A stretch of DNA of 64,000 nt, taken from assembly GCF_034259325.1 (NCBI RefSeq), contig NZ_JAXIVS010000001.1, positions 558,001 through 622,000 on the forward strand, given 5' to 3'. A program made the translations under genes and the position numbers. Under the pieces are notes generated by a model, which saw only the letters and a list, made by a program, of their open reading frames with translations, was not told the DNA's origin and made no database searches. The stretch is from Hyalangium ruber. Lineage in GTDB: Bacteria > Myxococcota > Myxococcia > Myxococcales > Myxococcaceae. The number at the start of each line of letters is the position of its first letter. Positions within the stretch are counted from its first letter, which is position 1. Shown here piece after piece: positions 5,597-57,342 of this stretch.

Positions 5597-5800
5597 GGCA
5601 AGGATCCAGACCGAGGGAAGTGTCCGGCGGCTGGAATGGCCACAGGATAGCGCTTCAGTCCGCCAGTTCATCGCCCCCTGAAACACCCATCGCCTCAGCC
5701 TGTTGACGCATCGCGTCCAACATCAGGCGTTGCCTACTCAGGGAGGCCGGCGGGGTCCTGCCCGCCCACTTGGAGGGCGAACAGGGAACGGTTTCGGCGC

Positions 5801-6061
5801 TCAGCCGTGCGAGACGTGGGACTCCACGGCCTCGAGCGAGCGGAACTCTCCCCCAGGCAATCCCCCGAGCAGGGTGAGGACCGCGGCGGGAGCCCCATTC
5901 TCCTGGGCCACACGGGTGAGCTGCTGCGCCGAGAGCGGGAACACCGCACCCTGCAAAGCCTCCCGCAACCCGGAGGTGGGCGGCGCGAGGAGCGGCTTCG
6001 CACGTGCCTCCAAATCACCCGATCCAGAGGGGGATTGGGCTCGTGTCATGTCGTCGTTCAT
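5801..6061 (-). CDS. DUF2795-family small protein
   Basis: 86 aa. The C-terminal two-thirds match the DUF2795 pattern: ALQGAVFPLSAQQL, then NGAPAAVLTLLGGLP and a final FRSLEAVESHV. A hydrophilic N-terminal stretch of about 30 residues precedes it. The function of this family is unknown. The start at 6061 (MNDDMTRAQ) has no good ribosome-binding site; a second in-frame ATG is at 6049. It is divergent from the 67-aa gene at 6215. Confidence 0.7.
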   Translation of the reverse strand: MNDDMTRAQSPSGSGDLEARAKPLLAPPTSGLREALQGAVFPLSAQQLTRVAQENGAPAAVLTLLGGLPGGEFRSLEAVESHVSHG

Positions 6062-6214
6062 TGGGGGGAAGTTAAGCAGCGAACGGGCCGAATGCGGGCT
6101 TTTTTCATCGCCTCCCGAGCAGCCAGGGGAGCGAGCCCGCGCAGGGAGGGGCCATAGCCACCTCCATCTCCACACCCCACCCTATGGCCACGGACACTTC
6201 CCAGGAGGCGCGAC

Positions 6215-6418
6215 ATGGCGAAGAAGGACAAGGGCTACGTGGAGCACATCGAGCACGCGGAAGCGACCCGGCCGGAGCCATGGCCAGGCATCCAGGGCCG
6301 CTCGAAGGAGCATGAGGAGGAATTGCCCACCGGCACTCCGCGCGAGCAGCAGGCCAGCGTCACCGAGGCCCAGCGCAAACTCGAAGAGGACATGGACTCG
6401 GACGAGACACGGAGCTGA
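6215..6418 (+). CDS. Small charged protein of unknown function
   Basis: 67 aa, almost entirely hydrophilic (MAKKDKGYVEHIEHAEATRP...), rich in Glu and Lys with no membrane segment or cysteine. A strong AGGAGG lies 7 nt before the ATG, which is the best evidence that it is translated. It is probably disordered. It is divergent from the DUF2795 gene and ends at a hairpin shared with the GST-like gene. No family recognised. Confidence 0.65.
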   Translation: MAKKDKGYVEHIEHAEATRPEPWPGIQGRSKEHEEELPTGTPREQQASVTEAQRKLEEDMDSDETRS

Positions 6419-6422
6419 GAAA

Positions 6423-6463
6423 GACAGGTCCCCAGGGCGAAGCAGTCCCTAGGGGACCCTGTC
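6423..6463. terminator. Hairpin between convergent genes
   Basis: GACAGGTCCCCAGGG pairs with CCCTAGGGGACCCTGTC across a loop of about 9 nt, with one or two bulged bases. There is no long T-run, but it sits between two convergent stop codons and could serve both directions. Confidence 0.5.
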
Positions 6464-6495
6464 CAAGACCCACTGGCCGTGGGGAACTTGCCCGC

Positions 6496-7125
6496 TCAAG
6501 CCTGCTTCGCCGCGAGCTCCGCGTCCTTCGCGCGCGCGCGCACCACCGCGGGCCGGGCGTTGAACCGCTCGAGGTAGGCTTTGATCTCCGGCAGCTCCGG
6601 CACGAGCTTGAAGCCGGTGGTCCACGTCAGCGCCGAGCCCCAGAGCACATCAGCCGCGGTGAAGGTCTCGCCCAGGAGCCAGGGCCCCTTGGCGAGCTGC
6701 TGCGTCAGCGTGCTGATCACCGTCTCGAAGTCGCCATAGGGCGAAGTCCCACGCGGGGCGGGCTCGCGCTTCATCGAGCGATCCACCAGCGCGGGCTCGA
6801 AGCAGGAGCCGTAGAACACCATCCAGCGCAGATACGGCCCCCGCAGCGGGTGACCGACGGCGGGCGACAACCCCGCCTCCGGGTAGAGCTCGGCCAGGTA
6901 CATGTAGACGGCGGCCTGCTCCGTCACCAGCGCATCCCCGTGCTTGATCGCCGGCACCTTGCCCATCGGGTTGACCGCCAGGTAGTCCGCCTGGCGCGTC
7001 TCGCCCGCCTTCATATTGAGCACCTTCAGCTCGTGCTCGGCGTTGAGCTCCTCGATCAGGATCCGGACCCCGGCGGACCGGGAGTTCGGAGCGTGGAAGA
7101 AGACAACGTGACGGCTGCTGGTCAT
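6496..7125 (-). CDS. Glutathione S-transferase family protein
   Basis: 209 aa, the normal GST length. The N-terminal thioredoxin-like domain (about residues 1-80) begins HVVFFHAPNSRSAGVRILIEEL and carries the cis-Pro and glutathione-binding region NPMGKVPAIKHGDALVTEQAAVYMYLAELYP. The C-terminal helical domain contains the N-capping region FTAADVLWGSALTW. Ser11-13 in the SRS segment may stand in for the catalytic Ser or Tyr. The start at 7125 has a GGAG upstream and gives the family N-terminus. It lies directly after the pyruvate dehydrogenase E2 gene in the direction of transcription (32 bp gap), so it may be co-transcribed. Confidence 0.9.
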   Translation of the reverse strand: MTSSRHVVFFHAPNSRSAGVRILIEELNAEHELKVLNMKAGETRQADYLAVNPMGKVPAIKHGDALVTEQAAVYMYLAELYPEAGLSPAVGHPLRGPYLRWMVFYGSCFEPALVDRSMKREPAPRGTSPYGDFETVISTLTQQLAKGPWLLGETFTAADVLWGSALTWTTGFKLVPELPEIKAYLERFNARPAVVRARAKDAELAAKQA

Positions 7126-7157
7126 GCGGGCTCCCTGGGGCGTCGTGAGTTGCGGGC

Positions 7158-8780
7158 CTAGAACAGCAATCGCATCGGGTGCTCGAGCAGCGTCTTGAAC
7201 TCCCGCAGGTACTCCGCGCCGGTGGCGCCGTCGATGACGCGGTGATCGCACGACATCGTCACCGTCAGCGTCTTGCGCACCGTGACCTGCCCGTCGCGCA
7301 CCACCGCCTTGTCCGCCACCGCGCCCACCGCGAGGATGGAGGCCTGCGGCGGGTTGATGACGGCGACGAACTGGTCGATGCCGTACATGCCCAGGTTGCT
7401 CACCGTGAGCGAGCCCCCCGTGTACTCGGCCGGCTTGAGCGCCTTCTTGCGAGCGCGCTCGGCCAGCTCCCGCGACTCGGCGGAAATGGCCGACAGGCCC
7501 TTCTGGTCCGCGTCCCGGATGACGGGCGTGATGAGGCCATCCTCGATGGCCACCGCGATGCCCACGTCCGCCGTGCCGTACTGGAGGATGCGATCCCCCT
7601 GCAGCGACACGTTCACCTTCGGGTAGCGACGCAGCGCGATGGCCGCCGCCTTCACGATGATGTCGTTGACGGAGACCTTGGACTCCAGCGCCTTGGCCTC
7701 CTCGCGGATCTTCATCGCCGCTTCCATGTCCACGTCCACCGTCAGGTAGAAGTGGGGCACGCCGGGCTTCACCTCGGCCATGCGCTGGGCAATCACCTTG
7801 CGCATGGACGAGATGGGCACCACCTGCGGCTCGGGACGAACGCCCGGAGTCGCAGCGGCACGGGCAGCAGCGGCCGGAGCCTTCTGAGCCGCGGGCCCGC
7901 CCTGGGCCAGCGCCTCCTCGACGTCACGCTTCACGATGCGGCCCAGCGGACCCGAGCCATGCATCGCCGCCAGATCCAGGCCGCGCTCGCGCGCCATCCT
8001 CTTGGCGAGCGGGCTGGCACGGACGCGACCTCCCGCACCGGTGCCCTTCTCCTCGTGACGCGGCGGAGCGCCCGACGGCCCTCCGGCCTTCTGCGCGGGC
8101 GCGGCGGCCTTCGGGGCCTCCGCCTTCGGAGCAGGAGCCGCAGCGGGAGCAGAGGCAGCGGCCTTACCGCCCTTGCCCGCGATGAACGCGATGGGGGCGC
8201 CGACCTGCGCCATCTCGCCCTCACCCACGACGATCTTCGCGAGCGTCCCGTTGTCGTAGGCCTCGATCTCGAGGTTGGACTTGTCGGTCTCCACCTCGGC
8301 GATGGCCTCGCCGGAGGAGACCTTGTCCCCTACCTTCTTGAGCCACTTGACGATCTTCCCCTCCTTCATCGTCGGGGAGAGCGACGGCATCTCGACGGCG
8401 ATGCCCTCGCCACCGCCGGCCGGAGCCGCAGGAGCAGGAGCAGGAGCAGCGGGCGCGGCGGCCTTCGCGGGAGCGGGCGTCTCGGCCTTGGGAGCGGCAG
8501 CGGGAGCAGGCGCGGCGGCCTTACCGGCCTCGACCTTCTCGCCCTTGGCACCGATGTACCCAATGGGAGCGCCGACCTGCGCCATCTCCCCCTCGGCCAC
8601 GGTGACCTGCAGCAGCACGCCGCTGTCGTAGGCCTCGATCTCGAGGTTGGACTTGTCGGTCTCCACCTCGGCGATGGCATCACCGGAGGAGATCTTGTCC
8701 CCCACCTTCTTGAGCCACTTGACGATCTTCCCCTCCTTCATCGTCGGGGAGAGCGACGGCATCTCGATGGGCTTGGCCAT
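7158..8780 (-). CDS. pdhC: Pyruvate dehydrogenase E2, dihydrolipoamide acetyltransferase
   Basis: 540 aa. Transfers acetyl groups from E1 to CoA and forms the core of the complex. Two lipoyl domains are present, each with the lipoyl-lysine motif ETDKSNLEIEAYD (K43 and about K167), separated by Ala/Pro linkers. A peripheral subunit-binding domain follows (RASPLAKRMARERGLDL). The catalytic domain (about residues 310-540) ends with the active-site DHRVIDGATGAEYL. The start at 8780 gives MAKPIEMPSLSPTM. It lies 5 bp after the E1 beta gene, third in an E1 alpha-E1 beta-E2 operon. The two lipoyl-coding segments are nearly identical in DNA. No E3 gene is nearby. Confidence 0.97.
   Translation of the reverse strand: MAKPIEMPSLSPTMKEGKIVKWLKKVGDKISSGDAIAEVETDKSNLEIEAYDSGVLLQVTVAEGEMAQVGAPIGYIGAKGEKVEAGKAAAPAPAAAPKAETPAPAKAAAPAAPAPAPAAPAGGGEGIAVEMPSLSPTMKEGKIVKWLKKVGDKVSSGEAIAEVETDKSNLEIEAYDNGTLAKIVVGEGEMAQVGAPIAFIAGKGGKAAASAPAAAPAPKAEAPKAAAPAQKAGGPSGAPPRHEEKGTGAGGRVRASPLAKRMARERGLDLAAMHGSGPLGRIVKRDVEEALAQGGPAAQKAPAAAARAAATPGVRPEPQVVPISSMRKVIAQRMAEVKPGVPHFYLTVDVDMEAAMKIREEAKALESKVSVNDIIVKAAAIALRRYPKVNVSLQGDRILQYGTADVGIAVAIEDGLITPVIRDADQKGLSAISAESRELAERARKKALKPAEYTGGSLTVSNLGMYGIDQFVAVINPPQASILAVGAVADKAVVRDGQVTVRKTLTVTMSCDHRVIDGATGAEYLREFKTLLEHPMRLLF
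8261..8395. repeat. Direct repeat, copy in second lipoyl domain
   Basis: These 135 bp match 8633-8767 with only about 4 mismatches (offset 372 bp, 124 codons). They encode the same lipoyl-domain segment in pdhC. Near identity at silent positions suggests recent duplication or gene conversion. Confidence 0.85.
8633..8767. repeat. Direct repeat, copy in first lipoyl domain
   Basis: Partner of 8261-8395. It encodes the N-terminal lipoyl domain of pdhC, from just after its start codon through the lipoyl-lysine motif. Confidence 0.85.
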
Positions 8781-21669: not shown

Positions 21670-23133
21670 CTATCCGCCGGTGCCCGTGCGCGGCGAAGTG
21701 TCCGCGGGAGCCACCGGCGCGGCGGTGGGCAGGGGCGCCGCCTTCGGCTGGGGCCGGGCGTTCCACACCCGGGTGGCCAGCACGAGCCCCACGACGGACA
21801 GCGGCACCAGGGCGATGGGCCAGTTGCTCCAGTTGTTGGGGTCCTTGGCCGCCGGCCCCGAGGGGAGGATCTTGCCCAGCAGCAGGGACTGGAGCGCGGT
21901 GCCGGCGTACACCGCGCCGTCGATGATGCCCACGGCCACGCCCGCGTTCTTCTTGCCGCCGAAGTCCATGCTCGCCGTGCCCGACAGCATTCCATGCACG
22001 CCGATGACGCACAGCGACATGAAGATGACCGTCCAGCCCAGCATCACGTGGTTGATGAGGAAGAGCGTGGTCACGGCGCCCAGCGTCATACCGCCATAGA
22101 GCACCGCGGACACGGGGCCCCGGCGGGAGTCGAACACCTTGTCGGAGATGACACCGGCGAACATGCCACCGGTGATGCCCGCCACGCACAGCAGCATGCC
22201 CCAGTTGGACGCGACGAAGCTCTCACCGATGCCGGTGGACTTCGCGAACTTGGGGTACCACTGCATGATGGCGTTGCGCATGTAGCCGCTGCAGAACTCG
22301 ATCATCAGGATGACGACGATGGTCGGGTTGCTGAGCATCTTGCGCAGCACGGTGAACACGCCCAGTCGGGGGCCGAGGTCTCCCGAGGAGGCATCCGCGG
22401 TATCGAAGTCCCGGTGGCCCGCCTGCCCCGGCGTGTCCCGGATGACGAAGAAGTCCAGCACCACGAAGGCCGCGAGGATCACCGCGGGGATGAAGAACAC
22501 CCAGTAGGTGGGCGCCGACTGGGTGATGAACCGGCTCCAGTCGTAGGCGAAGTAGACGCCCAGCGAGATGAGGATGCCGAACACGCCGCCGAGCACGCCG
22601 CGCTCGCGCACGTGGAACCACGACGCGTTCACCTTGACGATGGAGACGGCGCCGAAGCTCTGGAAGTACATGTTCGTCGCGTAGAGCACCGACAGCGTAG
22701 CCACCAAGCCGCCCGGCGGCTGCCAGTCCTGCGTCAGCACCGCGTACACCACCGCGCCCATCAGCACGTTGCACACCGAGGAGCCGGCCGCCGAGATCAG
22801 GATCGTCCTGCGCCCGCCCCACTTGTCCGTCAGCGGGCCGTTGAGCAGGAACGCCACGCCGTAGACGATGGTGCCCCAGAAGAAGATGGTGCCGAAGTCC
22901 TCGTTCGTCGTGCGACTGCCCATCGCGCTGGTGGCCACGTTGACGTTGTAGCGCCCCATGTAGAGGAACGCGTACGTCATCCCCAGCGGGAACCAGTTGA
23001 AGAAGCGCCGGCGCTTGAAGGCCTCCGTGTGCCCCAGTTCGACCTTGGGCAGGCTCGCGATCACCAGGGCGATCGCCCCGAGCAGGATGACGATGGGCAG
23101 CAACTGTTGCAGCCACGAGGGCATCGACGACAT
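21670..23133 (-). CDS. MFS transporter of the organophosphate:phosphate antiporter type
   Basis: 487 aa with about 12 membrane segments. MGRYNVNVATSAM after the first loop matches the RYN region conserved in GlpT/UhpT-like carriers. GPLTDKWGGRRTILI is the MFS loop 2-3 motif. The substrate is probably a phosphorylated metabolite, but the binding arginines cannot be assigned safely by eye. The C-terminus carries a Pro/Ala-rich cytoplasmic tail. It is transcribed toward the 522-aa membrane gene with an 86-bp gap. Confidence 0.85.
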   Translation of the reverse strand: MSSMPSWLQQLLPIVILLGAIALVIASLPKVELGHTEAFKRRRFFNWFPLGMTYAFLYMGRYNVNVATSAMGSRTTNEDFGTIFFWGTIVYGVAFLLNGPLTDKWGGRRTILISAAGSSVCNVLMGAVVYAVLTQDWQPPGGLVATLSVLYATNMYFQSFGAVSIVKVNASWFHVRERGVLGGVFGILISLGVYFAYDWSRFITQSAPTYWVFFIPAVILAAFVVLDFFVIRDTPGQAGHRDFDTADASSGDLGPRLGVFTVLRKMLSNPTIVVILMIEFCSGYMRNAIMQWYPKFAKSTGIGESFVASNWGMLLCVAGITGGMFAGVISDKVFDSRRGPVSAVLYGGMTLGAVTTLFLINHVMLGWTVIFMSLCVIGVHGMLSGTASMDFGGKKNAGVAVGIIDGAVYAGTALQSLLLGKILPSGPAAKDPNNWSNWPIALVPLSVVGLVLATRVWNARPQPKAAPLPTAAPVAPADTSPRTGTGG

Positions 23134-23217: not shown

Positions 23218-23889
23218 CTATGCCTGCTCGGCCAGCAGACGGGTGATGGCGATCTCCAGCTTCGCGTCCGGCACCTCCCCGCGTCGGCACGCCGCCAGCA
23301 GTTCCTGGATGGGGCGCCACTGCAGCCGGGTGCCCTCCTCTAGAGGAGAGCCGTCCCCCTCGGGCTCCCGGGCCTGCTTGCCCGTCACGTCCACCGCCGT
23401 GGGGAACACCTTCTCCGAGATGATCCCCGGCGCCACGAAGAAGCCCCCACCCAGCAGCCGGATCTCCTCGGGCCCTACCTCGTAGCCGGCCTCCTCGCGC
23501 ACCTCCTCCACCGCGCGGCGCCGCACCCCCGCCTCCCCCTTGTCCTCCACCTCCATCACCCCGGCGACGAGCTCCTCCACCAGCAGGTAGCTGCTCGGAT
23601 CCGGCACCACCATCTCCTTGCCCCTGCGGAAGTAGGCCGCTGGCCGGAGGTTCTTGCGCGTGAGCACCTCCAGCCCCGACGCACCGCGGCGATAGATGAG
23701 CACCGCCACCGCGTCCAACCGGGGCCGATCCACCACATCCACCCGGTACACGGGTGAAACCGACCCATCCGCGCGGCGGTTCTGGCACCGCAGCCGGCGG
23801 ATCCGCAGGAATCCTTCGTCGCAGCGCGCCGTGGACGAGAAATCCTCGATGATCTCGATATCCGTCACGGTCACCTGGCTTGACTGCAT
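23218..23889 (-). CDS. Nudix-family hydrolase
   Basis: 223 aa. The central domain has the Nudix helix region GEAGVRRRAVEEVREEAGYE, ending in the conserved REExGY-type element. One extra residue and replacement of the canonical Arg make the box slightly atypical. The fold resembles ADP-ribose or nucleoside-diphosphate-sugar pyrophosphatases: VVDRPRLDAVAVLIYRRG before and LGGGFFVAPGIISEKVFP after the box. It probably hydrolyses a nucleoside diphosphate linked to another group. AAGGAGG lies upstream of the ATG at 23889. It is divergent from the 5'-nucleotidase gene. Confidence 0.85.
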   Translation of the reverse strand: MQSSQVTVTDIEIIEDFSSTARCDEGFLRIRRLRCQNRRADGSVSPVYRVDVVDRPRLDAVAVLIYRRGASGLEVLTRKNLRPAAYFRRGKEMVVPDPSSYLLVEELVAGVMEVEDKGEAGVRRRAVEEVREEAGYEVGPEEIRLLGGGFFVAPGIISEKVFPTAVDVTGKQAREPEGDGSPLEEGTRLQWRPIQELLAACRRGEVPDAKLEIAITRLLAEQA

Positions 23890-24008
23890 GCCTGCCTCCT
23901 TGGCGGGTGGGGTCGTCCCGCCCTCGTCGCTTGCCCGACACTCCCTGATCCCGTACCTTGCGCCGTCTCCTGCTGCATCCCTTTCACGAAAGCCCCCGGA
24001 ACCACCTG

Positions 24009-26537
24009 ATGCGTCGTGCACTGATCGGCCTCCTCTGCGCCCTGATCTCCACCTCGTGCATGCCGGTGCTGGACGGCGAGGATTACAACCTCGCTGGTCA
24101 GGAAGTGCGCCTCACGATCCTTCATACGTCGGATATCCACTCCCGGCTCATCCCCTATGACTTCGCGCCGCTGAAGACGGACACGGATCTGGGGATCATC
24201 CCGGAGGCGGGACCGTTCGGAGGCGCCACCCGCATGGCCGCGCTGCTCAAGCGCGAGCGGCAGCGCGGCGACCGCGTGATGCACCTGGACTCGGGTGACT
24301 GCTTCCAGGGCGCGCCCATCTTCAACCTCAAGAACGGCGAGGCGGAGTTCCGCTTCCTCACCGCCGCCGGGCTGGATGCCGCGGTGGTGGGCAATCACGA
24401 GTTCGACGCCGGCGCGCTCAACTTCGTGGAGAAGGCGCGCGACTTCGCCCAGTTCCCGCTGCTGGCCGCCAACTACGCCTGGGACAGCCCCAATGATCCT
24501 GGCAACAACGGCGCCGCGCTCGTCACCGCCCCCTACACCATCCGCATGATGAAGGGCCTGCGCGTGGGCGTCATCGGCATGGCCAACCTCTCCTCGCTCA
24601 ACTCGATCGTCGAGGGTGGCAACTCGCTGCAGGTGACGCCGCTGGAGCAGAACGAGGCCCTGCGCGGCTACGTGGACCTGCTGCGCCCGGTGACGGACCT
24701 CATCGTCGTCGTCAGCCACCTGGGCCTCACCGAGGACCAGGACGCGGTGCTCGGCTACGAGGCCTACTTCGAGTACGAGCGCGCCAAGCCCTTCATCGAT
24801 CGCGAGAAGAACCCGTGGAAGATCCTCGAGTGGTCCGGCGAGGAGGGCAACCTCAAGTCCGTGGTCCGCGTGCAGATCCCCGGCGTGTCCGGCATCGACA
24901 TCATCCTCGGTGGCCACCTGCACGTGGTGCTCAACCCGCCGCAGAGCGTCATCGATCCGAGCGGCCGCACGGTGCTGCTGACCCACTCGGGCGCCTTCTC
25001 CAAGTACGTGGGCCGCCTGGATGTGGTGGTGAAGGTGCCCAAGGCCGAGGAGGCCACGGTGGACGGGGCGGAGCTCGTCAGCCACGACTACCGCGCCTTC
25101 CCGCTGGACGCGCTCTGGTGCGACGACGCGATGCGCGCCTTCTACCATGACGACTCCGTCTTCTGGGAGCCGGGCACCTTCGTCGCGAGGCCTGACGTGC
25201 GCGCCGCCATGAAGAAGTGCGAGGACCAGGAGGACCGGTTCACCACCGGGCTGCTCCAGGAGTACATCCTGGGCATGGACTTCAACCTCCAACTGACGTC
25301 CATCTTCTCTTACGCGCCCCGGGACGTGGCCCGCCGCAACAGCTCCACCGGTGGTGACTCGCCCCTGGGCAACGTCGCCGCGGACTCCATGCGCAAGCGC
25401 CGCCGCGTCGAGGCGGAGATGGCCATCACCAACTCGCTGGGCATCCGCGACAACCTCTACGCGGGCGTCGTCTCCCAGGAGTCGATGTTCAACGTGTTCC
25501 CCTTCGAGAACACGATCAACATCATGTACCTGTCCGGCGTGGAGGTGCAGGAGATGTTCGACTTCGTGGCCGAGCGCTCCGCCGAGCGCGGCTGCGTCAG
25601 CCAGGCCCAGGTCTCCGGCGCGCGCTTCACCATGGACTGCGCCCAGGTGCAGCTCAACGAGCTGCGCATCGCCTGTAATCCGGACGACGGCGGCGCCTCG
25701 AAGTGGTGCCCCAAGGAAGGCCGCGAGGGCCACGCGCCGTGGCAGTGCCTGGAGGACCTGGACGGCAGCCGCTGCTGGGCCAACCCCGCCATCGACATCC
25801 AGATCAACGGCAAGCCGCTGGATCCCAACGGCACCTACCGCATCGCCGTCAATGACTACATCGCCAAGGGCGGCTCGGGCTTCCGGGTGCTCAAGCGCAA
25901 CACCACCCGCATCGAGACGGGCATCTCCTTGCGTGACTCGCTCATCGGCTACATGCAGAGCCAGTGTACCTGCGAGGACATCCTCCTCGGCAACGAGACG
26001 TCCTCGACGGGAGAGCGCTGCGGCACGCTGGTCAACGGCAAGTGGGTCGTGGACGAGCAGACCCGTGGCTTCTGCCGCGAGGCGAAGGCTTTCAAGCAGC
26101 ACCTGGCAGTGACGGCGGGCAGCTGCACCTGCCGCGAGCTGCTGGGCAAGACCGAGGATGTGGACGACCTCGATGACACGGTCGAGCGCTGTGGCGTGTC
26201 CGCCGAGACGATCCAGACCACCTGCACCGCGGGCCAGCAGGACAAGGCCGTAGGCAGCTGCACCTGCGGTGAGCTGACGGCGGCCCAGAAGATCGACGTG
26301 GACGACCTGGATGACTCGGTCGAGCGCTGCGGCGCGTCGGCCGAGAAGATCCAGGAACTGTGCACCGTCGAGCCGGGCCCCTACACCGGACGCTGCGGCT
26401 GCCGGGATGCGCTGGCGGGCAACAACCCCACCTGCGGCACCCTCACCCCGCAGCTGCGCAACTTCTGCGAGAACCCCACTTCCATGCCAATCGCCAACGT
26501 GGTCGAGGATGGCCGCATCGGCCGGAGGGTGAAGTAA
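24009..26537 (+). CDS. 5'-nucleotidase/UDP-sugar-hydrolase lipoprotein with Cys-rich tail
   Basis: 842 aa. The N-terminus (LLCALISTSCMP) is a lipoprotein signal. The metallophosphoesterase domain has all motifs: TILHTSDIHSRL, LDSGDCFQG, VGNHEFDAGAL, VVVSHLGL and GGHLHVVL. The 5'-nucleotidase C-terminal domain includes NSLGIRDNLYAG and FPFENTINIMYLSG with the substrate-stacking region. The last 190 residues (about 650-842) are unusual: four short cysteine modules beginning C-T-C or C-G-C and ending in a lone Cys. Family enzymes are usually 550-650 aa, so the tail is an addition. It likely acts on extracellular nucleotides at the cell surface. It overlaps the next lipoprotein gene by one base. 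Confidence 0.93.
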   Translation: MRRALIGLLCALISTSCMPVLDGEDYNLAGQEVRLTILHTSDIHSRLIPYDFAPLKTDTDLGIIPEAGPFGGATRMAALLKRERQRGDRVMHLDSGDCFQGAPIFNLKNGEAEFRFLTAAGLDAAVVGNHEFDAGALNFVEKARDFAQFPLLAANYAWDSPNDPGNNGAALVTAPYTIRMMKGLRVGVIGMANLSSLNSIVEGGNSLQVTPLEQNEALRGYVDLLRPVTDLIVVVSHLGLTEDQDAVLGYEAYFEYERAKPFIDREKNPWKILEWSGEEGNLKSVVRVQIPGVSGIDIILGGHLHVVLNPPQSVIDPSGRTVLLTHSGAFSKYVGRLDVVVKVPKAEEATVDGAELVSHDYRAFPLDALWCDDAMRAFYHDDSVFWEPGTFVARPDVRAAMKKCEDQEDRFTTGLLQEYILGMDFNLQLTSIFSYAPRDVARRNSSTGGDSPLGNVAADSMRKRRRVEAEMAITNSLGIRDNLYAGVVSQESMFNVFPFENTINIMYLSGVEVQEMFDFVAERSAERGCVSQAQVSGARFTMDCAQVQLNELRIACNPDDGGASKWCPKEGREGHAPWQCLEDLDGSRCWANPAIDIQINGKPLDPNGTYRIAVNDYIAKGGSGFRVLKRNTTRIETGISLRDSLIGYMQSQCTCEDILLGNETSSTGERCGTLVNGKWVVDEQTRGFCREAKAFKQHLAVTAGSCTCRELLGKTEDVDDLDDTVERCGVSAETIQTTCTAGQQDKAVGSCTCGELTAAQKIDVDDLDDSVERCGASAEKIQELCTVEPGPYTGRCGCRDALAGNNPTCGTLTPQLRNFCENPTSMPIANVVEDGRIGRRVK
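25965..26468. repeat. Four tandem cysteine modules in the 5'-nucleotidase gene
   Basis: The modules span about residues C653-C689, C706-C741, C751-C787 and C796-C820. Modules 2 and 3 share VDDLDD(T/S)VERCG(V/A)SAE and are similar in DNA (around 26160 and 26298), which points to internal duplication. Modules 1 and 4 are more diverged. Confidence 0.75.
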
Positions 26538-28615
26538 TGAAGCGACTGCTCCTCCTGGCGGCCCTCGCGGGGGCTGGCTGTTACTCGACGGACGGGAAGA
26601 TCGACGGGTCGAGCCTCGACTCCGACGTGGGCTCGTTCCGCGTCGAGGTCAAGGGCATCTACACCGTCACCGACACCGGCGCCAACCGCACGCCGCTGTC
26701 CGTGGTGAGCTCCTGCTCCGCGCGCTACGGCTCTCCGGCCGAGGTGCCCGTGGCGGTGCGCGGCACTCCGGACTGCCGCTACGCCATCCCCAAGAGCGCG
26801 ATGGACATCGATCTGGCCATCACGGCGCTGGATCGCAACGGTGAGCCGCTCACCTCTTTCAACGGCCCGGTCTCCTTCCGCGTCGTCCCGGGGAACCTGA
26901 GCGGTCCCTACGAGACGCGGTGGAAGCAGCTCGAGAATGGCCAGGGCGACGGCACCGTGCGCGTGAAGCATCTGTACGGCGAGGTTCGCGTGTGGGTGCA
27001 GGACGAGCCGCCCCAGCTCGAATACAGCGACGGCGGCATCCGCTACACCGACGGCGGAGTCCGCTCGGACGGCGGCGATCCGAACTCCCTGCCCCAGGAC
27101 AGCGGCACGCACAGCTACGCCACGGGCCTGACGGCCCCCGTGTACTTCGAGGAGCCCACGCTGGCGCGCGTGCAGGAGCCGGAGGTCTACAACGACAACC
27201 GCATCTCGCCCTTCTCCGGTCAGTTCCTCACCGTGGGCCGGCCGCCCGAGTCCGGCACTCCGCTGCTCCAGAACTGCCCTCCCGGTTACGACTCCCGGGA
27301 TCCGTCGAAGAAGGATCCCAACGACGGCAAGCTCGCCACCCTGGTGGTGACTGGCACCGACCCGGGCGGCTTCTTCGTCACGGACCTGACGGCCTGCAAG
27401 GTGCGTGAGTACACCGGCTCGGGCTCCAACGTCCGCACCCCCGAGCCCACGGGCTTCATGCCCGGCACCTACGGCTCGATCTACATCTACAACTACTCCT
27501 TCCCCGAGGGGCTGTACCCGGGCGATCTGCTCTGGTCCATCTCCGGCTCGGTGCAGGAGTTCACGGCCACCACGCAGCTGACCTTCCCGGCGTGGATCAT
27601 CCGCGAGAAGGTGCGCGAGCTGCCTCCCGCCGAGTGGGAGAAGTACCTCAATCAGCTCAACGTGGTGGAGCTCAACCTGCGCCACTGCGGCCTGGACAAT
27701 CTGGTGGCGCCGTACGTCACCGACTCGCTGTGCGGCTACAGCTACGGCAACCTGAAGATGGAGAGCATGGAGTCGGCGCTGGTGAAGCTGCGCCGTGTCC
27801 GCATGCCCGAGATCTTCGAGAACTGCGACACCAACGGCGACGGCTCGGTGCCGTTCTTCTGCCCCGGCGCCGGCGGCGCCGCCTACACGTACTGCGGCGA
27901 GGAGAACCAGGCCGAGATCGCCGAGCGGACGTGCAACATCAACTGCATCGTCGGGCTGGGCAAGCACGCGGGGAAGGTTTGCGCCGAGCGCAACACGTAC
28001 AATGGCTTCGGCCAGTTCGTGGTGGAGATGGCCGCTCCCGGGCCGCGCGAGGCGGGCTTCGACGACTCGCTGGACCGGCGCACCCAGGTCATCACCGTGT
28101 CGCCGCTCGAGTCGCGCGCCACCCCGACGGCGATCACCACGGGCGTCAACGGCCCGGCGCAGGTGCGCGTGTGGTGTGACACGCCGGTGCGCGTGAAGTT
28201 CGGCACGGCGAGCGTGAGGGCGACGATCGATGACGTCCCCCTGGCGGCCAAGGCCGTCATGGAGCACACGATGACGGGCACCGAGCAGTTCGTGGCCGTG
28301 CTGGCCGACGGTGACGTCATCAACCGAGGCCAGTGCCACGTGTCGCTCAACAGCCGCACGCGCATCAACGTCGTCACGCGCGACGCGGTGCCGGACCTGG
28401 TGGTGGACTGCAACGAGAACGACTCGAACGCGGACGCCGCCAAGCAGTGCCAGCTGCTGCGTACGGCCACCTACAACATCACCGGCCACCTGCGGCAGGT
28501 GAGCGCCGCCCGGCCGCGCTGGATCATCAGCCCGCGCGACGCGGACGATGTCTGCTGCTTCCCGGGACCGGAGGGTGCTTGCCCCCGCCCCATCAAGCAG
28601 TGCCCGGCCGAGTAA
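26537..28615 (+). CDS. Large lipoprotein of unknown function
   Basis: 692 aa with a lipoprotein signal (LLLLAALAGAGCYSTDG). The first 130 mature residues look like an immunoglobulin-like beta domain (FRVEVKGIYTVTDTGAN). A Gly/Asp-rich linker follows (about residues 160-190). The rest has about 15 cysteines and one calcium-loop-like DTNGDGSVPF. No catalytic motif is evident. The start codon overlaps the stop of the 5'-nucleotidase gene (TAATG), so translation is probably coupled. It may bind or present something at the outer membrane with its two neighbours. Confidence 0.85.
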   Translation: MKRLLLLAALAGAGCYSTDGKIDGSSLDSDVGSFRVEVKGIYTVTDTGANRTPLSVVSSCSARYGSPAEVPVAVRGTPDCRYAIPKSAMDIDLAITALDRNGEPLTSFNGPVSFRVVPGNLSGPYETRWKQLENGQGDGTVRVKHLYGEVRVWVQDEPPQLEYSDGGIRYTDGGVRSDGGDPNSLPQDSGTHSYATGLTAPVYFEEPTLARVQEPEVYNDNRISPFSGQFLTVGRPPESGTPLLQNCPPGYDSRDPSKKDPNDGKLATLVVTGTDPGGFFVTDLTACKVREYTGSGSNVRTPEPTGFMPGTYGSIYIYNYSFPEGLYPGDLLWSISGSVQEFTATTQLTFPAWIIREKVRELPPAEWEKYLNQLNVVELNLRHCGLDNLVAPYVTDSLCGYSYGNLKMESMESALVKLRRVRMPEIFENCDTNGDGSVPFFCPGAGGAAYTYCGEENQAEIAERTCNINCIVGLGKHAGKVCAERNTYNGFGQFVVEMAAPGPREAGFDDSLDRRTQVITVSPLESRATPTAITTGVNGPAQVRVWCDTPVRVKFGTASVRATIDDVPLAAKAVMEHTMTGTEQFVAVLADGDVINRGQCHVSLNSRTRINVVTRDAVPDLVVDCNENDSNADAAKQCQLLRTATYNITGHLRQVSAARPRWIISPRDADDVCCFPGPEGACPRPIKQCPAE

Positions 28616-28705
28616 GGCTTTGCTGTAGACAGCACCGAAGAAGCTTGCCCCGGTAACGGGGCTCATGGGAGGCGCGGTCGGCTCGGCCGCGTCCGTGGAG
28701 GGAAA

Positions 28706-30235
28706 TTGAAAACGCTGCGTACCCTGGCCCTGACCGGGCTGTTGTCCTTGTCCGCGCCCGCATGGGCCGGAGACTTCGTCGACACCCGCTTGTCCTTCGT
28801 CTTCGCGGACGACAACGTCCTGGCGGGGGCGGGCGAGACGACGCCCAACAGCCCCAACGCGCGCTTCGGCGCGGGCAACCAGAACACCCAGTTCTACGAC
28901 AACTTCAACACGCGCTTCTCGGGCTTCGAGACGCTGTCGAACGTGGTGCTCTACAAGCGCATGCCCGCCTTCTTCGAGGGGCTCACCACCGAGGCGGCGC
29001 TCACCATCCTCGTGCTGGAGCAGCCCTCGGGCGGCGTCACGCTGCGGGACAACTCCAGCTACATCCGGCTGAACTACACGCCGCCGGGCTGGGGTGAGCG
29101 CGAGGGCATCTCGCTCACGGGCTTCCCGGTGTCGGCGGACCGCTTCCGGCTCGGGTACGCGTACCGCATCTCCTGGGGTGGCAGCGGCATCTTCACCACC
29201 CGCGCCGCGGCCGAGGGCGTGCCGGGCGCCAAGCTGCAGATCACCCGCGACCGCTGGTACGCCTACGTGGGCGGCAAGACGGCGCTGGCGCTCAACGATC
29301 TCATCCTCGAGAAGGAGACGCTCTACGGCGCGATGGCGGGCGCGGGCGTGGACCTGCTGGAGACGCTGCGGCTGGAAGCGGGCGGCGGCTACTTCCAGAA
29401 GGGCATCATCCCGGGCCTGGCCAACCAGGGCATCCGCGCGCCGGTGAACTCGGCGGGCGTGTCGGGCCAGGCGGTGTACCACGTGGGCGTGCCGGTGGGC
29501 ACGAGCGTGGACTTCCGGCTCTACCGGAACGACCCGGAGGTGTACCAGCGCTTCTTCGCGCCGGAGATCTACACGGGCGGGCTGTCCTACTCGGTGTCGC
29601 TGGAGGGGAGCTTCCTGACGCAGTCGCTGGAGAACCCGGACGTCTTCGGCCAGACGGTGACGCAGGACGCCACGGCGGTGGCGCTGCAGGCGCGGGCGAA
29701 GTTCAACTATCTGCGCGTCCACCTGCTGGGGCTCTACCGCAGCCTGTCGTTCATCCAGTTCGAGGTGCCGGGCCTGCCGCCCTACCGTGACTTCCCGGAG
29801 GGCACGAAGCTCAACCCGGAGATGTTCATCGCGGCGGGCGCGGACTACCACCTGCCGAGCCTGCACTTCACCCCGGGCTTCATCGTGGGTGTGCAGCAGC
29901 CGGCCTCCTTCCGCAGCCCGGAGTTCACGGGCGGTGGCAACAACCCGCCGCCGAGCCTGACGGGCACGCGCACCGTGGTGGTGCGGGACGTGAACCTGCT
30001 GAGCATCCTTCCGGAGACGTGCGGCACCGCGGCCTGCGAGGCGGACCTGATCCTCTCGGCGAAGGCGACGTTCCGCTGGGACTTGTCGGAGACGGTCGCG
30101 GCGGTGGGCGAGGTCTATTACACGTACGACAACAACCGGACGACGTTCCGGGACGACGTGACGGGCGTGGCCGAGCCGCGCTTCGAGGAGCCGCACGCGC
30201 TGGGCTTCAACACCCTGCTCCAGGCGCGCTTCTAA
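28706..30235 (+). CDS. Predicted outer-membrane beta-barrel protein
   Basis: 509 aa from a TTG start preceded by a strong GGAGGGAAA. A signal peptide (TLALTGLLSLSAPAWA) is followed by alternating aromatic and charged beta-strand patterns throughout. The last residues (LGFNTLLQARF) end in the C-terminal Phe that outer-membrane barrels use for assembly. The protein starts its mature part GDFVDTRLSFVFADDNVL and has no plug or receptor signature. It lies 90 bp after the lipoprotein gene and ends at a strong hairpin, so it is probably the last gene of the 5'-nucleotidase operon. Confidence 0.85.
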   Translation: MKTLRTLALTGLLSLSAPAWAGDFVDTRLSFVFADDNVLAGAGETTPNSPNARFGAGNQNTQFYDNFNTRFSGFETLSNVVLYKRMPAFFEGLTTEAALTILVLEQPSGGVTLRDNSSYIRLNYTPPGWGEREGISLTGFPVSADRFRLGYAYRISWGGSGIFTTRAAAEGVPGAKLQITRDRWYAYVGGKTALALNDLILEKETLYGAMAGAGVDLLETLRLEAGGGYFQKGIIPGLANQGIRAPVNSAGVSGQAVYHVGVPVGTSVDFRLYRNDPEVYQRFFAPEIYTGGLSYSVSLEGSFLTQSLENPDVFGQTVTQDATAVALQARAKFNYLRVHLLGLYRSLSFIQFEVPGLPPYRDFPEGTKLNPEMFIAAGADYHLPSLHFTPGFIVGVQQPASFRSPEFTGGGNNPPPSLTGTRTVVVRDVNLLSILPETCGTAACEADLILSAKATFRWDLSETVAAVGEVYYTYDNNRTTFRDDVTGVAEPRFEEPHALGFNTLLQARF

Positions 30236-30280: not shown

Positions 30281-32104
30281 TCAGGAGGACGTCATGCGCA
30301 CCACTTCATCGAACGTGGTGAGCCCCTGGGCCAGCTTGCGCACCGCCGCCTCGCGCAGCGTGCGCATCCCCACCCGCCGTGCCGCCTCCACCAGCTCATG
30401 GTGAGAGGCGCCGTGGGTGATCATCTCCTTCATCTCCGCGCCGATGCTGACGATCTCGAAGACGCCGGTGCGCCCGAAGTAGCCGGTGCCGCGGCAGCGC
30501 ACGCACCCTGCTCCCTTGAGCAGCCTCACCCCGCCGGGTAGCAGCGGGATGGGCACCTGGAGCGCCGTCAGCTCGTCCGGAGTGAGCGTCGTCTCCTGCG
30601 CGCAGTGGACGCAGATGCGCCGCAGCAGGCGCTGGGCCATGAGCCCCACGAGGCTCGAGGCGAGCAGGAAGGCCGGCACCTCCAGGTCCTTCATGCGAGC
30701 CACCGCGCCGATCGCGTCGTTGGTGTGCAGCGTGGAGAGCACCAGGTGGCCGGTGAGCGCGGACTGGATGGCGTTCTCCGCCGTCTCCGCGTCGCGGATC
30801 TCTCCCACCATGATGACGTCCGGGTCCTGGCGGAGGATGTGGCGCAGCGCCCCGGCGAAGTCCAAGCCCACCTTGGGCTGAACCTGCACCTGGTTGAAGC
30901 CCTCCCACACCATTTCGATCGGATCCTCGATGGTGGTGACGTTGACGTCCGGCCCGGCCACCGCCTTGAGCGCCGAGTAGAGCGTCGTCGTCTTGCCGCT
31001 GCCCGTGGGGCCCGTCACCAGAATGAGCCCGTGCGGCTGGTCGATCCACGACTCGAAGGAGCCCTTCTCGTCCGGCTCGAAGCCGAGCTGGGCGATGTCC
31101 TGCACCAGCGTGTCCGGGTCGAAGATACGGATGACCACCTTCTCACCGAAGGCGGTGGGCAGCGTGGAGACACGTAACTCCACCTCGCGGCCCTCGCGCT
31201 CCGTCTTGATGCGCCCGTCCTGCGGCCGGCGCTTCTCGGAGATGTCCATGCGCGAGAGCATCTTCACGCGCGAGACGATGGGCGCATGCACGCCTGCAGG
31301 CAGCGTGTACACGGTGTGCAGCACACCGTCGATGCGCAGGCGCACATGGGACTGGGCACGCTTGGGCTCGACGTGGATGTCCGAGGCGCGGTTGTCGAAG
31401 GCGTAGCGCAGCAGGTAGTCCACCGCCTGCACCACCGGCTTGTCCGAGGCCTCCAGCTCCTGCGTGCCGCTGAGCGACACGAGCTGCTCGAAGTTGCCGA
31501 TCGCCGGCTCGCTGGCGAAGTCGTCCGCCGCGCGGGCCAGCGTCTTCTTGAAGCCGTAGATCTCCGTGATGGACTTGAGGATGTCCGACTTGGAGGACAG
31601 CACCGGCTCGATGGGCAGGCCGGTGAGGTGGAAGAGGTTCTCGAACAGCTCGCGATCGAACGGGTTGGCCACCGCCACCACGAGCCGCCCCTGCGCCGAA
31701 CGCTCCAGCGGCAGCAGCGCGTGCTTCTGCGCGAAGGGGCGCGACACGGTGCGCGTGGCCAGCGCCATGTCCAGCTTGAGCGGGTCGATCTTCCGGTACG
31801 TCATGCCGGCGGCGCGCGCGGCGGCCTCCGTCACCCGGTCCTCATCCAGTACGCCCCGGCCCTCGGGCAGCGGCACCTGGAAGGCGGCGACGATCTCCAC
31901 CGGCGACACGTCATACCGTGCCGCCTCCTTGGTGTTGCCCTGCCCCTTGGACTTGAGGACGCGGGCCCGGGCGGCTGGCTCACGCGCCAGCACCTCCTGG
32001 GCCTGCTGAGGGGCGAGCAGCCCCTGGGCCACCAACGCCTCCAGCACGAACGTCGTGCTGAAGTCGGCCTGGCTGCGATTCGTGGTGCTCAGCGGCGTTG
32101 CCAA
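30281..32104 (-). CDS. GspE/PilB-type secretion ATPase
   Basis: 607 aa from a TTG start at 32104, which has GGAGGT 8 nt upstream. An MshEN-like N-terminal domain (about residues 20-185) is followed by the ATPase core: ASDIHVEP, Walker A GPTGSGKT (365-372), Asp box, Walker B DPDVIMVGEIRD (428-439) and His box TGHLVLSTLHTND. A tetracysteine zinc site is present (C498/C501 and C534/C537), as in GspE and PilB. It drives type II secretion or type IV pilus assembly from the cytoplasmic face. Sequence alone does not separate the two; no other gsp or pil gene is in the window. Its start overlaps the end of the MYXO-CTERM protease gene by 16 bp. Confidence 0.92.
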   Translation of the reverse strand: MATPLSTTNRSQADFSTTFVLEALVAQGLLAPQQAQEVLAREPAARARVLKSKGQGNTKEAARYDVSPVEIVAAFQVPLPEGRGVLDEDRVTEAAARAAGMTYRKIDPLKLDMALATRTVSRPFAQKHALLPLERSAQGRLVVAVANPFDRELFENLFHLTGLPIEPVLSSKSDILKSITEIYGFKKTLARAADDFASEPAIGNFEQLVSLSGTQELEASDKPVVQAVDYLLRYAFDNRASDIHVEPKRAQSHVRLRIDGVLHTVYTLPAGVHAPIVSRVKMLSRMDISEKRRPQDGRIKTEREGREVELRVSTLPTAFGEKVVIRIFDPDTLVQDIAQLGFEPDEKGSFESWIDQPHGLILVTGPTGSGKTTTLYSALKAVAGPDVNVTTIEDPIEMVWEGFNQVQVQPKVGLDFAGALRHILRQDPDVIMVGEIRDAETAENAIQSALTGHLVLSTLHTNDAIGAVARMKDLEVPAFLLASSLVGLMAQRLLRRICVHCAQETTLTPDELTALQVPIPLLPGGVRLLKGAGCVRCRGTGYFGRTGVFEIVSIGAEMKEMITHGASHHELVEAARRVGMRTLREAAVRKLAQGLTTFDEVVRMTSS

Positions 32105-33873
32105 GAGCGCCGACCTCCCACCCCGAGCAGCAGCACGAGCGCCGCGAGGAAGACCAACGCCGAGGCGGGGCCTCCGGAGCAACCACACCCGTCCGGCGTG
32201 CCCCCTCCTCCGCTGCCGCCATCCGTTGGAGGGGGAGGAGGCGGAGGCTGCGTGCCAGCGTCGTTGCCGCAGAGCGTGCAACCCCCGTCCGTGGGGGCAT
32301 AGGGATCGAAGCACCCGCCACCGCTGCAGAAGTACCCGGAGGGGCAGTCGAGGTTGTTCTGGCAGCCCGGCTGGCACGCGAAGCCATCCCCCAGCGGGTT
32401 GCATGCGAGCGGCTGCTCACAGGTGCCCGCGCTGCAGTCCCGCATGCACATGCGCACGTTGCCGACGGCCCGGCAGGTGGAGCCTCCCGGACAGCCGCAG
32501 GCGGCGTTGGAGCAGGGCTGCGAGCAGACCCCCGTCGGCTGGTTGTTGATGAACAGGCACACCTGACCCGCGCTGCACTCCGAGGTCTGGTTGCACGGCG
32601 AGCCCACGGAGCGCCCGAGCCCCGTGTTCGCGAAGCAGATCCGGTCACACACGCGGCAGCTGAAGGCGGTCGGGCTGCTGCTGCCCACGTTGCAGTCCGA
32701 GTCGGTGTAGCAGTTGGGGACGCAGACGTTGCCCGTGGGCAGGGGCGAGCAGGTGTAGCCCACGCGGCAGTCACCACTTCCCACGCGGCACGACTTCAGG
32801 CAGCGGTTCCCGTTGCCGGTGGCCGTGCAGAGGGAGCCCGCGGGACAGTTGTCGTTGGGCGCCAGGGAGCAGGACTCCTGGCAGTAGCCGTCCTCCCAGG
32901 CGATGCCCGTGGAGGGCAGCGCCAGCTCATTCTGGCAGAGGCCGACCGCCGAGCCGCAGTCGCCATTGACGCCGCAGGGCTTGCCCACCTGGGTGATCGC
33001 CTCGTTGGGCACGGCGGTGCAAGCGGTGCCACCGTCCTGCAGGCTGCGCCGACAGACGAAGGGATCCGGGCAATCGCCCGGGTTGTTGAGGGCGCAGTTC
33101 TTGGTGCAGTAGCGGTACAGCAGACCGCCGTCCGACTTGTTGTAGGGGATGCAGTTCAGCCCGTTGCTGCACGGATCGCTCGGCGAACAGGGCGAGCCCA
33201 CCGCGCCGTTGTCCGGGTACTGACGGCACAGGTGCTCCTCGTCATGCACGTCGAGCGCGCGCCGGTTGCCTCCCGCGGGGAGCACCGCGTGCATCACCGC
33301 CTCCGTGGGGCTGTAGACGTCATCCAACCCCAGGCAGTGGCCGATCTCGTGGGTCAGCGCCGACTGAAGGTCCGTGCGTCCGCCGCTCGGGTCGGTGTTC
33401 GGCACCACCGTCCACAGGTAGTTCACCGCGTTGACGAAGATGTCGCACTGGTAGAGGTAGCCCGCGTAGGTGAGCGGGATGGAGCCCGTCTTCGCCTGCC
33501 CTCGACCGAGCGCCAGCTCGTAGTACGGGTCGGTATTGCTGGTGACCCAGACGGTGCTCACGTTGAATGCGTCGAACGCGTTGCCCACGTCGTTGGGGTT
33601 GATGGACGTGTTCTGGCTGGTGAGCCCCGCGTAGTTGAAGTCCGGGTACGCGCAGCCCACGTTCTCCCAGGCCTGGAAGGCATCCTGGGTGGCCTGGATG
33701 ACCGAGCTCAGGGAGATGCCCGCGGGAGTCTGGTTCCGACTGTCCACGTAGTAGGAGAACGGATTCTCCCGCGTGTTGAGCATCTTGTGGCCGAGGTAGG
33801 GGTATTCGTCCGCCCAGGCCGTGGCGCTGATCGCCACCCACGCGAGCACCACCGTCCATTGCAACCTGTTCAT
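32089..33873 (-). CDS. Secreted metalloprotease with MYXO-CTERM sorting tail
   Basis: 594 aa. A signal peptide (VVLAWVAISATAWA) leads to a zincin catalytic domain with HEIGHCLGLDD at 175-185. The third ligand position is Asp instead of His, as in snapalysin-type enzymes, and a Met-turn-like VMHAVLP follows. The middle (about 225-540) is a long string of short cysteine motifs (PCS.SDPC, CPAGSLC, CPSGYFC), like myxobacterial surface adhesion modules. The last 34 residues are a MYXO-CTERM tail: a Pro/Gly spacer, GCGCSGG, one membrane segment and RRSWQRR. Such tails are cleaved and anchored after export in myxobacteria. Its ATG overlaps the upstream stop by 4 bp. Confidence 0.92.
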   Translation of the reverse strand: MNRLQWTVVLAWVAISATAWADEYPYLGHKMLNTRENPFSYYVDSRNQTPAGISLSSVIQATQDAFQAWENVGCAYPDFNYAGLTSQNTSINPNDVGNAFDAFNVSTVWVTSNTDPYYELALGRGQAKTGSIPLTYAGYLYQCDIFVNAVNYLWTVVPNTDPSGGRTDLQSALTHEIGHCLGLDDVYSPTEAVMHAVLPAGGNRRALDVHDEEHLCRQYPDNGAVGSPCSPSDPCSNGLNCIPYNKSDGGLLYRYCTKNCALNNPGDCPDPFVCRRSLQDGGTACTAVPNEAITQVGKPCGVNGDCGSAVGLCQNELALPSTGIAWEDGYCQESCSLAPNDNCPAGSLCTATGNGNRCLKSCRVGSGDCRVGYTCSPLPTGNVCVPNCYTDSDCNVGSSSPTAFSCRVCDRICFANTGLGRSVGSPCNQTSECSAGQVCLFINNQPTGVCSQPCSNAACGCPGGSTCRAVGNVRMCMRDCSAGTCEQPLACNPLGDGFACQPGCQNNLDCPSGYFCSGGGCFDPYAPTDGGCTLCGNDAGTQPPPPPPPTDGGSGGGGTPDGCGCSGGPASALVFLAALVLLLGVGGRRSWQRR

Positions 33874-53877: not shown

Positions 53878-53917
53878 AACCCGCCTCCCCGCCTCTCCTG
53901 GAAGAAGGATGACCTCC

Positions 53918-54784: not shown

Positions 54785-54813
54785 CCAGCGGCCGCGCCTG
54801 AGCAGGCGATCCC

Positions 54814-54840
54814 ACTCCCCCTGCACGGGGGAGTTTTTTT
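54814..54840 (+). terminator. Rho-independent terminator
   Basis: An 8-bp stem ACTCCCCC/GGGGGAGT with loop TGCAC is followed by a run of seven T (54834-54840). It ends the DUF3108-DUF4091-DUF3108 operon. Confidence 0.93.
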
Positions 54841-54854
54841 GGTGCTCAAATTGA

Positions 54855-54886
54855 TACTGGTTTGCAAAATCATTTGCAAACCAGTA
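54855..54886. promoter_or_regulatory. Perfect 14-bp inverted repeat, candidate operator
   Basis: TACTGGTTTGCAAA at 54855-54868 is repeated inverted as TTTGCAAACCAGTA at 54873-54886 with spacer ATCA. The block is A/T-rich in a G+C-rich genome. It lies 16 bp before the ATG of a porin gene that starts an imelysin/di-heme oxidoreductase operon. It overlaps a TGATACTGGTTTGCA segment that matches the Fur consensus at 11 of 15 positions. Fur or another metal regulator is a likely binder. Confidence 0.6.
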
Positions 54887-54902
54887 GGGTGCGCGCCGTT
54901 CG

Positions 54903-56225: not shown

Positions 56226-56237
56226 AGGAAAATCCTG

Positions 56238-57323: not shown

Positions 57324-57342
57324 AATGGTCCGGGGGGACACC

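Follow-up and report, generated by a model that had tools for sequence, protein, structure and literature searches.

The window analysed here, a stretch of 64,000 nucleotides from the 10.8-Mb genome of the myxobacterium Hyalangium ruber, carries an operon of three genes lying in tandem on the + strand, which encode a 5'-nucleotidase lipoprotein with a cysteine-rich insertion, a second lipoprotein and a likely outer-membrane barrel. Re-reading the open reading frames (ORFs) confirmed the three genes and the coordinates given by an initial annotation made from the sequence alone, as well as the overlap it had described between the nucleotidase gene and the gene of a 692-residue lipoprotein: the lipoprotein ATG shares one base with the nucleotidase stop codon (TAATG, 26535-26539). 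The barrel gene starts with a TTG at 28706, 90 bases after the lipoprotein gene. The features of the operon, in window coordinates and with the evidence for each, are the following (AF2, AlphaFold2).

24009..26537, + strand: 5'-nucleotidase lipoprotein, 842 amino acids, lipid Cys17 (PF00149, PF02872, AF2 model, aligned Cys17)
25959..26504, + strand: putative insertion in the nucleotidase C-domain, after the last helix and ahead of the last strand, with four CxC...C...C modules (alignment, module profile, AF2 model)
25965..26075, + strand: Cys module 1, C653-C689 (profile match, E 5.3e-9)
26124..26225, + strand: Cys module 2, C706-C739 (profile match, E 7.1e-11)
26259..26363, + strand: Cys module 3, C751-C785, near-twin of module 2 (profile match, E 2.4e-9; Cys aligned in only 4 of 35 rows)
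26394..26468, + strand: Cys module 4, C796-C820 (profile match, E 4.1e-12)
26505..26534, + strand: terminal strand EDGRIGRRVK of the nucleotidase core (Arg836 in 35 of 35 rows; modelled strand 837-840)
26537..28615, + strand: lipoprotein, 692 amino acids, lipid Cys15, modelled as a beta-sandwich, a part like the oligonucleotide/oligosaccharide-binding (OB) fold and further beta structure (aligned Cys15, AF2 model)
27143..27610, + strand: lipoprotein residues 203-358, OB-like (relatives match the N-terminal region of NF033681; 3f1z, 5yzp; hhalign to ExeM)
28706..30235, + strand: likely outer-membrane barrel, 509 amino acids, TTG start, signal-peptide-like start and C-terminal Phe (relatives in the phylum; class presumed)

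The linkage of the three genes is strong and extends over many predatory soil myxobacteria and relatives of these. A pattern scan of a collection of 84,980 species for relatives of the barrel gave 117 stretches, the best 80 of which, from named records, were analysed as loci, and in 66 of these 80 all three genes stand on one strand and in one order, so that the expectation of the initial annotation that they belong together withstood the comparison with other genomes. Six of the loci are cut by a contig end (L109, L110, L121, L127, L130, L162) and five hold the barrel alone (L137, L149, L158, L160, L163). With our own start choices, an overlap of 1 or 4 bases links the nucleotidase gene to the lipoprotein gene in 42 of 63 cases, and the pairwise distances of the three proteins correlate with r of 0.92-0.96 over 63 sets, much of which follows from shared phylogeny alone. 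Absences are shared as well: among 60 relatives, largely the same species as in the locus set, 22 lack the barrel and all 22 also lack the lipoprotein; in 21 of them the nucleotidase search gave nothing better than E 1.6e-17, the remaining one (G024) having a match cut by a contig end, and the trio is jointly absent from a genome available as a single contig (G028). Among 34 further loci, picked to include second barrels, 13 were contigs already among the 80, and the other 21 bear the trio in five cases (L172, L174, L189, L190, L197) and the barrel only in 16, with some of the contigs being very short.

The first protein is a member of the UshA/CD73-type nucleotidase superfamily, for which sequence and model predict hydrolysis of 5'-nucleotides. 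It exceeds the curated cut-offs of PF00149 (Metallophos; 35.0 bits against 21.5) and PF02872 (5_nucleotid_C; 102.2 bits against 23.6), and its AF2 model (predicted local distance difference test, pLDDT, 85.6; predicted template modelling score, pTM, 0.75) matches the Thermus 5'-nucleotidase 2z1a with Z 35.5 over 479 aligned residues at a root-mean-square deviation (rmsd) of 2.8, CD73 entries with Z about 35 and NadN with Z 34.6. Eleven residues (D42, H44, D97, N129, H130, H237, H303, H305, N475, R480 and F499) are identical in 35 of 35 aligned rows, the window included, and F625 is present in 33 of the 35; we take their roles to be the binding of metal, phosphate and base. The two-domain fold, the catalytic and substrate residues and the terminal strand are thus common to UshA, CD73, 2z1a and the window protein, whereas the window family differs from them in being lipoproteins, in carrying 0-4 Cys modules before the last strand and in having extra internal segments; with 145.4 of 600 bits, the window protein lies far under the cut-off of the UshA equivalog NF007109. 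Both this protein and the product of the second gene are bacterial lipoproteins: after the signal peptide the lipid-box Cys17 of the nucleotidase occurs in all 35 aligned rows, and Cys15 of the second protein is invariant in 36 of 36, the window counted in each. Since start codons were chosen in favour of lipid boxes, with a strict pattern passed by 111 of 132 proteins, it is on these aligned cysteine columns that the lipoprotein assignment rests.

The 16 cysteines that follow GGSGF in the nucleotidase form four modules of four, and modules 2 and 3 resemble each other around VDDLDD.VERCG.SAE, in agreement with the four modules, two of them nearly identical, that had been noticed from the sequence. 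The repetition exceeds chance: a profile built from the modules recovers all four of them, with E between 4e-12 and 5e-9, and the next match in the 10.8-Mb genome, for which the scoring covered 150 of 441 first-look candidates, has E 0.34. The modules had been described as a C-terminal tail, a view that we would revise. In the AF2 model they follow the last helix (641-650) and precede the terminal strand (837-840), a placement that follows from the alignment of the model to solved 5'-nucleotidases up to their last residues (full-length matches from about residue 30 to 838-842, the alignment ranges giving end points only). The ending EDGRIGRRVK is therefore best read as belonging to the nucleotidase core, and the modules as an insertion in the C-terminal domain, of which about 180 residues, largely helical in the model, occupy the loop ahead of the terminal strand. 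In the same genome, the canonical paralogue L003 ends in 'RDELVAYWQARKKPITVPTLGRIAYV', with a helix, a short loop and a GRI strand (LGRIAYV); the paralogue L005, the other of the two compared among five, has no such ending.

The number of modules varies across the family. In a set made up of the window protein and 63 nucleotidases from named records, three CxC motifs follow GGSGF in 33 proteins, four in 8, two in 7, one in 5 and none in 11. A tree built from 63 cores requires three changes to account for the state of four modules, all forced by well-supported branches, and these may have been gains or losses. The two rows nearest to the window, from a Myxococcaceae metagenome-assembled genome (L088) and Hyalangium versicolor (L087), carry three modules each, and the fourth, near-twin module of the window protein would therefore fit a recent local copy. 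Outside this nucleotidase, the module profile found no match at E<=0.01 in 40 genomes, its own included, with up to 150 candidates scored per genome, and four weaker matches in other proteins had E 0.03-0.09; a carrier unrelated to the nucleotidase was accordingly not seen at that threshold. Searches of Pfam, NCBIfam and PDB sequences gave no match of weight, as the initial annotation, which assigned the tail to no recognised family, would lead one to expect. The PDB matches of the module profile were arrestins (E >= 0.056), which covered part of a module only and were taken as chance. We picture the modules as an insert of disulfide type in the substrate-binding domain, which most likely would serve stability outside the cytoplasm or docking. 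We take it for an insertion that grows within an established enzyme fold, and not for a new C-terminal domain.

Of the three proteins, the second shows the lowest conservation wherever pairs were compared (in G014, 81% for the nucleotidase, 66% for the lipoprotein and 88% for the barrel). Its AF2 model (pLDDT 88.6, pTM 0.87) places at residues 29-207 a beta-sandwich, whose closest structural matches are GH2 C-terminal domains (Z 7.5), followed by an OB-like part and more beta structure. To residues 203-358, approximately, the best structural matches were 3f1z, a 'putative nucleic acid-binding lipoprotein' (Z 6.3, 93 aligned, rmsd 3.6), and 5yzp, the HINa domain of p204 (Z 6.3, 82 aligned, rmsd 2.3). 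Sequence points in the same direction: of 36 aligned members, 9 have a match to NF033681 (ExeM/NucH) at E<=10. Of 7 lipoproteins of the family scanned singly, 2 match it at E<=1, the best being L154 (E 9.4e-5, 21.5 bits against a cut-off of 300, positions 4-112 of 546) and the other L126 (E 0.0081, positions 17-69 of 546); at that threshold, six of the eight proteins scanned in this way gave none. An hhalign comparison with the ExeM of the window genome gave E 0.0004 and a probability of 35% over the OB-like segment, which shares with ExeM/NucH the pattern G-F-F-x-x-D ... GD ... SGxVxEF. Whereas ExeM/NucH proteins carry a nuclease domain, the lipoprotein family has none, its matches remaining far below the cut-off. 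Taken together, sequence and model suggest a weak OB-type signal, like the N-terminus of ExeM/NucH, in the best-conserved part of the family, so that the protein, for which no recognised family had been claimed, now has a possible kinship through its relatives.

A complete ExeM/NucH nuclease is encoded elsewhere in the window genome (L201, G000:C1:419097-420671, 585.6 bits). It was considered as a partner enzyme of the trio and set aside, as a complete nuclease of this type occurs in only 2 of 117 genomes of the phylum at E<=1e-60. Separately, one lineage has a long lipoprotein of 1066-1076 amino acids (L118, at 4707-7904, and L120, L124, L125, L128, L130 and L136), and an RCC1-type propeller, identified by sequence in L118 (PF25390, 4.8e-125), is inserted in the N-terminal domain of one of 36 scanned members.

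Relatives of the barrel were found at E <= 1e-10 in 114 of 179 genomes and 48 of 83 genera of Myxococcota, and for the best 80 of the 117 stretches all record titles but two name Myxococcota groups or Deltaproteobacteria, the exceptions being Comamonas, placed among Myxococcus on the tree, and Proteobacteria; so far the family is almost confined to Myxococcota. PF24653 matches 4 of 11 members at E<=10 (best 5.4e-6), with 12.7 bits for the window protein against a cut-off of 27. An outer-membrane barrel, as the initial annotation had it, is the likely class of the gene product at 28706-30235, judging from sequence and, if the link to Myxococcus xanthus discussed below holds, from a proteome. 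The record titled Comamonas (L102, BNCN01000003.1, labelled Comamonas sp. KCTC 72670) bears the trio and groups within Myxococcus; it is probably mislabelled or contaminated.

With about even confidence, we interpret the trio as a co-inherited outer-membrane module of Myxococcota for the processing of external nucleotides and nucleic acid, which probably helps the cell to feed on nucleotides from outside. The nucleotidase lipoprotein, with its UshA/CD73 fold, would strip phosphate from nucleotides, the OB-type lipoprotein could hold nucleic acid or nucleotides, and the barrel would pass the resulting nucleosides or phosphate or else anchor both lipoproteins; in predatory myxobacteria, lysed prey may be the source of the nucleic acid. 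A surface nucleotide-scavenging complex had been proposed by the initial annotation, of which a nucleotide-processing unit of the outer membrane stays the best reading, whereas the complex and the surface exposure are presumptive, and the proteins might face either the surface or the periplasm. It is possible, as a tentative and more specific proposal built on analogy, that the trio is a dedicated Myxococcota machine for eating prey nucleic acid, in which, by a logic like that of the Sus systems for glycans, the OB lipoprotein would capture polymer or nucleotides, the docked nucleotidase with its cysteine-rich insert would trim these at the membrane and the barrel would import what results. 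To our knowledge, uptake of prey nucleic acid by predatory myxobacteria has been little described. In either form, the proposal would make the trio a conserved outer-membrane unit, testable by deletion in M. xanthus, and would give a likely role to a barrel family that has no solved relative.

Related combinations are known from other bacteria. Bacillus subtilis YhcR joins an OB fold, a nuclease and a 5'-nucleotidase in one Gram-positive wall protein, and an OB domain and a 5'-nucleotidase would likewise come together in the trio, which in contrast consists of separate lipoproteins and a barrel. In Haemophilus influenzae, NadN, the lipoprotein e(P4) and OmpP2 act on external nucleotide as nucleotidase, phosphatase lipoprotein and barrel; this set differs from the trio in having neither Cys modules nor an OB lipoprotein, and we know of no single conserved operon that holds it. 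A literature search, outside which most subscription journals lay, found no paper joining nucleotidase, OB-fold, outer membrane and lipoprotein, nor one joining Myxococcota, nucleotidase and cysteine-rich.

For M. xanthus, the gene numbers MXAN_2659-2661 would correspond to barrel, lipoprotein and nucleotidase, which we infer from order, class and relative chromosome position and not from sequence: in the single-contig genome G022 the three genes follow one another in that order at 3.10-3.11 of 8.97 Mb, which fits the numbers. A vesicle location of MXAN_2661 is reportedly due to Kahnt (2010), at second hand. In section 6 of PMC3222651, on the outer-membrane proteome, MXAN2659 appears in the barrel table with 17 peptides and MXAN2660 as a lipoprotein with 6 peptides, and section 12 of PMC9548883 counts MXAN_2661 among the vesicle-located hydrolases raised in predation. 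Within the same reach of journals, no further paper was found with these numbers, or with the neighbouring ones that were tried. Passages of PMC2887360, on myxobacterial phosphatases, do not mention MXAN_2661, and in PMC10454023, on ushA-like genes, Myxococcus is marked with a plus in the tables and the terms lipoprotein and outer membrane are absent.

Several observations weigh against a nucleotide-processing module. The link to M. xanthus is unproven, because section 6 of PMC3222651 does not list MXAN2661 and has two other proteins annotated as 5'-nucleotidases (MXAN2470 and MXAN5361, one peptide each), and because the word 'nucleotidase' is absent from PMC9548883. The window lipoprotein itself has no match in Pfam or NCBIfam, NF033681 included, its family profile found nothing among PDB sequences, and Foldseek returned no match to its model at E<=0.001; the structural matches of the OB-like part are modest, under the trust level of 8 set by the tool, so that the OB assignment draws on sequence and model together. 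For the barrel, PDB sequences offered no match of weight. In the window genome the NupC family PF07662, the one importer family searched, is without a match; a nucleoside route inward is possible, as two Bmp-type binding proteins are present.

Further such observations come from the loci themselves and bear on two other explanations. In G048 (locus L137) the barrel lies apart, with nucleotidase and lipoprotein on another contig, and a physical complex of the three proteins is itself conjectural. Both points would suit a reading, to us quite improbable, in which the three are co-transcribed envelope proteins that form no complex and owe their conserved order to shared regulation only; the tight order, the frequent gene overlap over many families and the joint absence, as in G028, speak against it. 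In three of the 80 loci (L148, L153, L154) lipoprotein and barrel occur without an adjoining nucleotidase, and many genomes have a second, more distant barrel copy without the partners. Neighbours of these second barrels include a ChaN-type lipoprotein gene (PF04187), directly ahead of the barrel in L080 and, by eye, in L194 and L195, a metabolite symporter (L192) and an ABC permease (PF02653, L082), from which it follows that the barrel family is not nucleotide-specific; it may possibly consist of general uptake barrels. The ChaN-type pairs and the three loci without a nucleotidase would also be expected if lipoprotein and barrel were a display or export pair that carries enzymes to the cell surface, the nucleotidase being one cargo. 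We regard this as quite doubtful, given that a beta-sandwich plus OB protein would be an odd partner in export and that no known export barrel was matched in Pfam or PDB sequences, itself weak evidence.

The surroundings of the operon hold three features, again in window coordinates.

23927..23963, + strand: promoter-like core, conserved, GCTTGCC ... TACCTT (shared upstream sequence)
23218..23889, - strand: Nudix-type gene, divergent, frequent neighbour in the family (TIGR00052 at 5.6e-8, under its cut-off; no Pfam match)
21670..23133, - strand: major facilitator superfamily (MFS) transporter, closest to those for organophosphates, found beside the operon in some of the family (PF07690 over its cut-off; TIGR00881 at 8e-31, under its cut-off)

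In 20 loci of the window's family, as counted with a rough ORF caller, the Nudix-type gene adjoins the operon 14 times and the MFS transporter 11 times; both assignments lie under NCBIfam cut-offs. These neighbours, if functional partners, would suggest that the unit serves other organophosphates or dinucleotides such as NAD, ADP-ribose and UDP-sugars; NAD and UDP-sugars are substrates of NadN and UshA, which share the nucleotidase fold, and NadN is among the fold matches of the window protein (Z 34.6). We consider this unlikely: both genes lie on the other strand and neither was seen next to the operon in the 11 loci from other families (L067-L077), Nudix enzymes of this type are cytoplasmic, and an OB-like lipoprotein is suggestive of nucleic acid.

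Upstream of the operon, GCTTGCC was found in 14 of 14 regions and TACCTT in 10 of 14. Control by phosphate, raised by the initial annotation, found no backing in the sequence: a search allowing 3 mismatches found no pair of E. coli-type Pho boxes in the window, whose genome may use a box of another sequence, and the one Pho-box match at the M. xanthus AM003 locus is at chance level and about 6 kb beyond the operon. Elsewhere in the window, a Matrixin-type protease gene (32089-33873, - strand) shows by eye Cys-rich stretches and a MYXO-CTERM-like end, and its product has a weak relationship, at 58.9 of 250 bits, to the MXAN_2677/2678 family. A run of genes for secreted proteins or lipoproteins lies at 52213-58665 (+ strand), among which imelysin-like and cytochrome-peroxidase-like proteins were recognised by eye.

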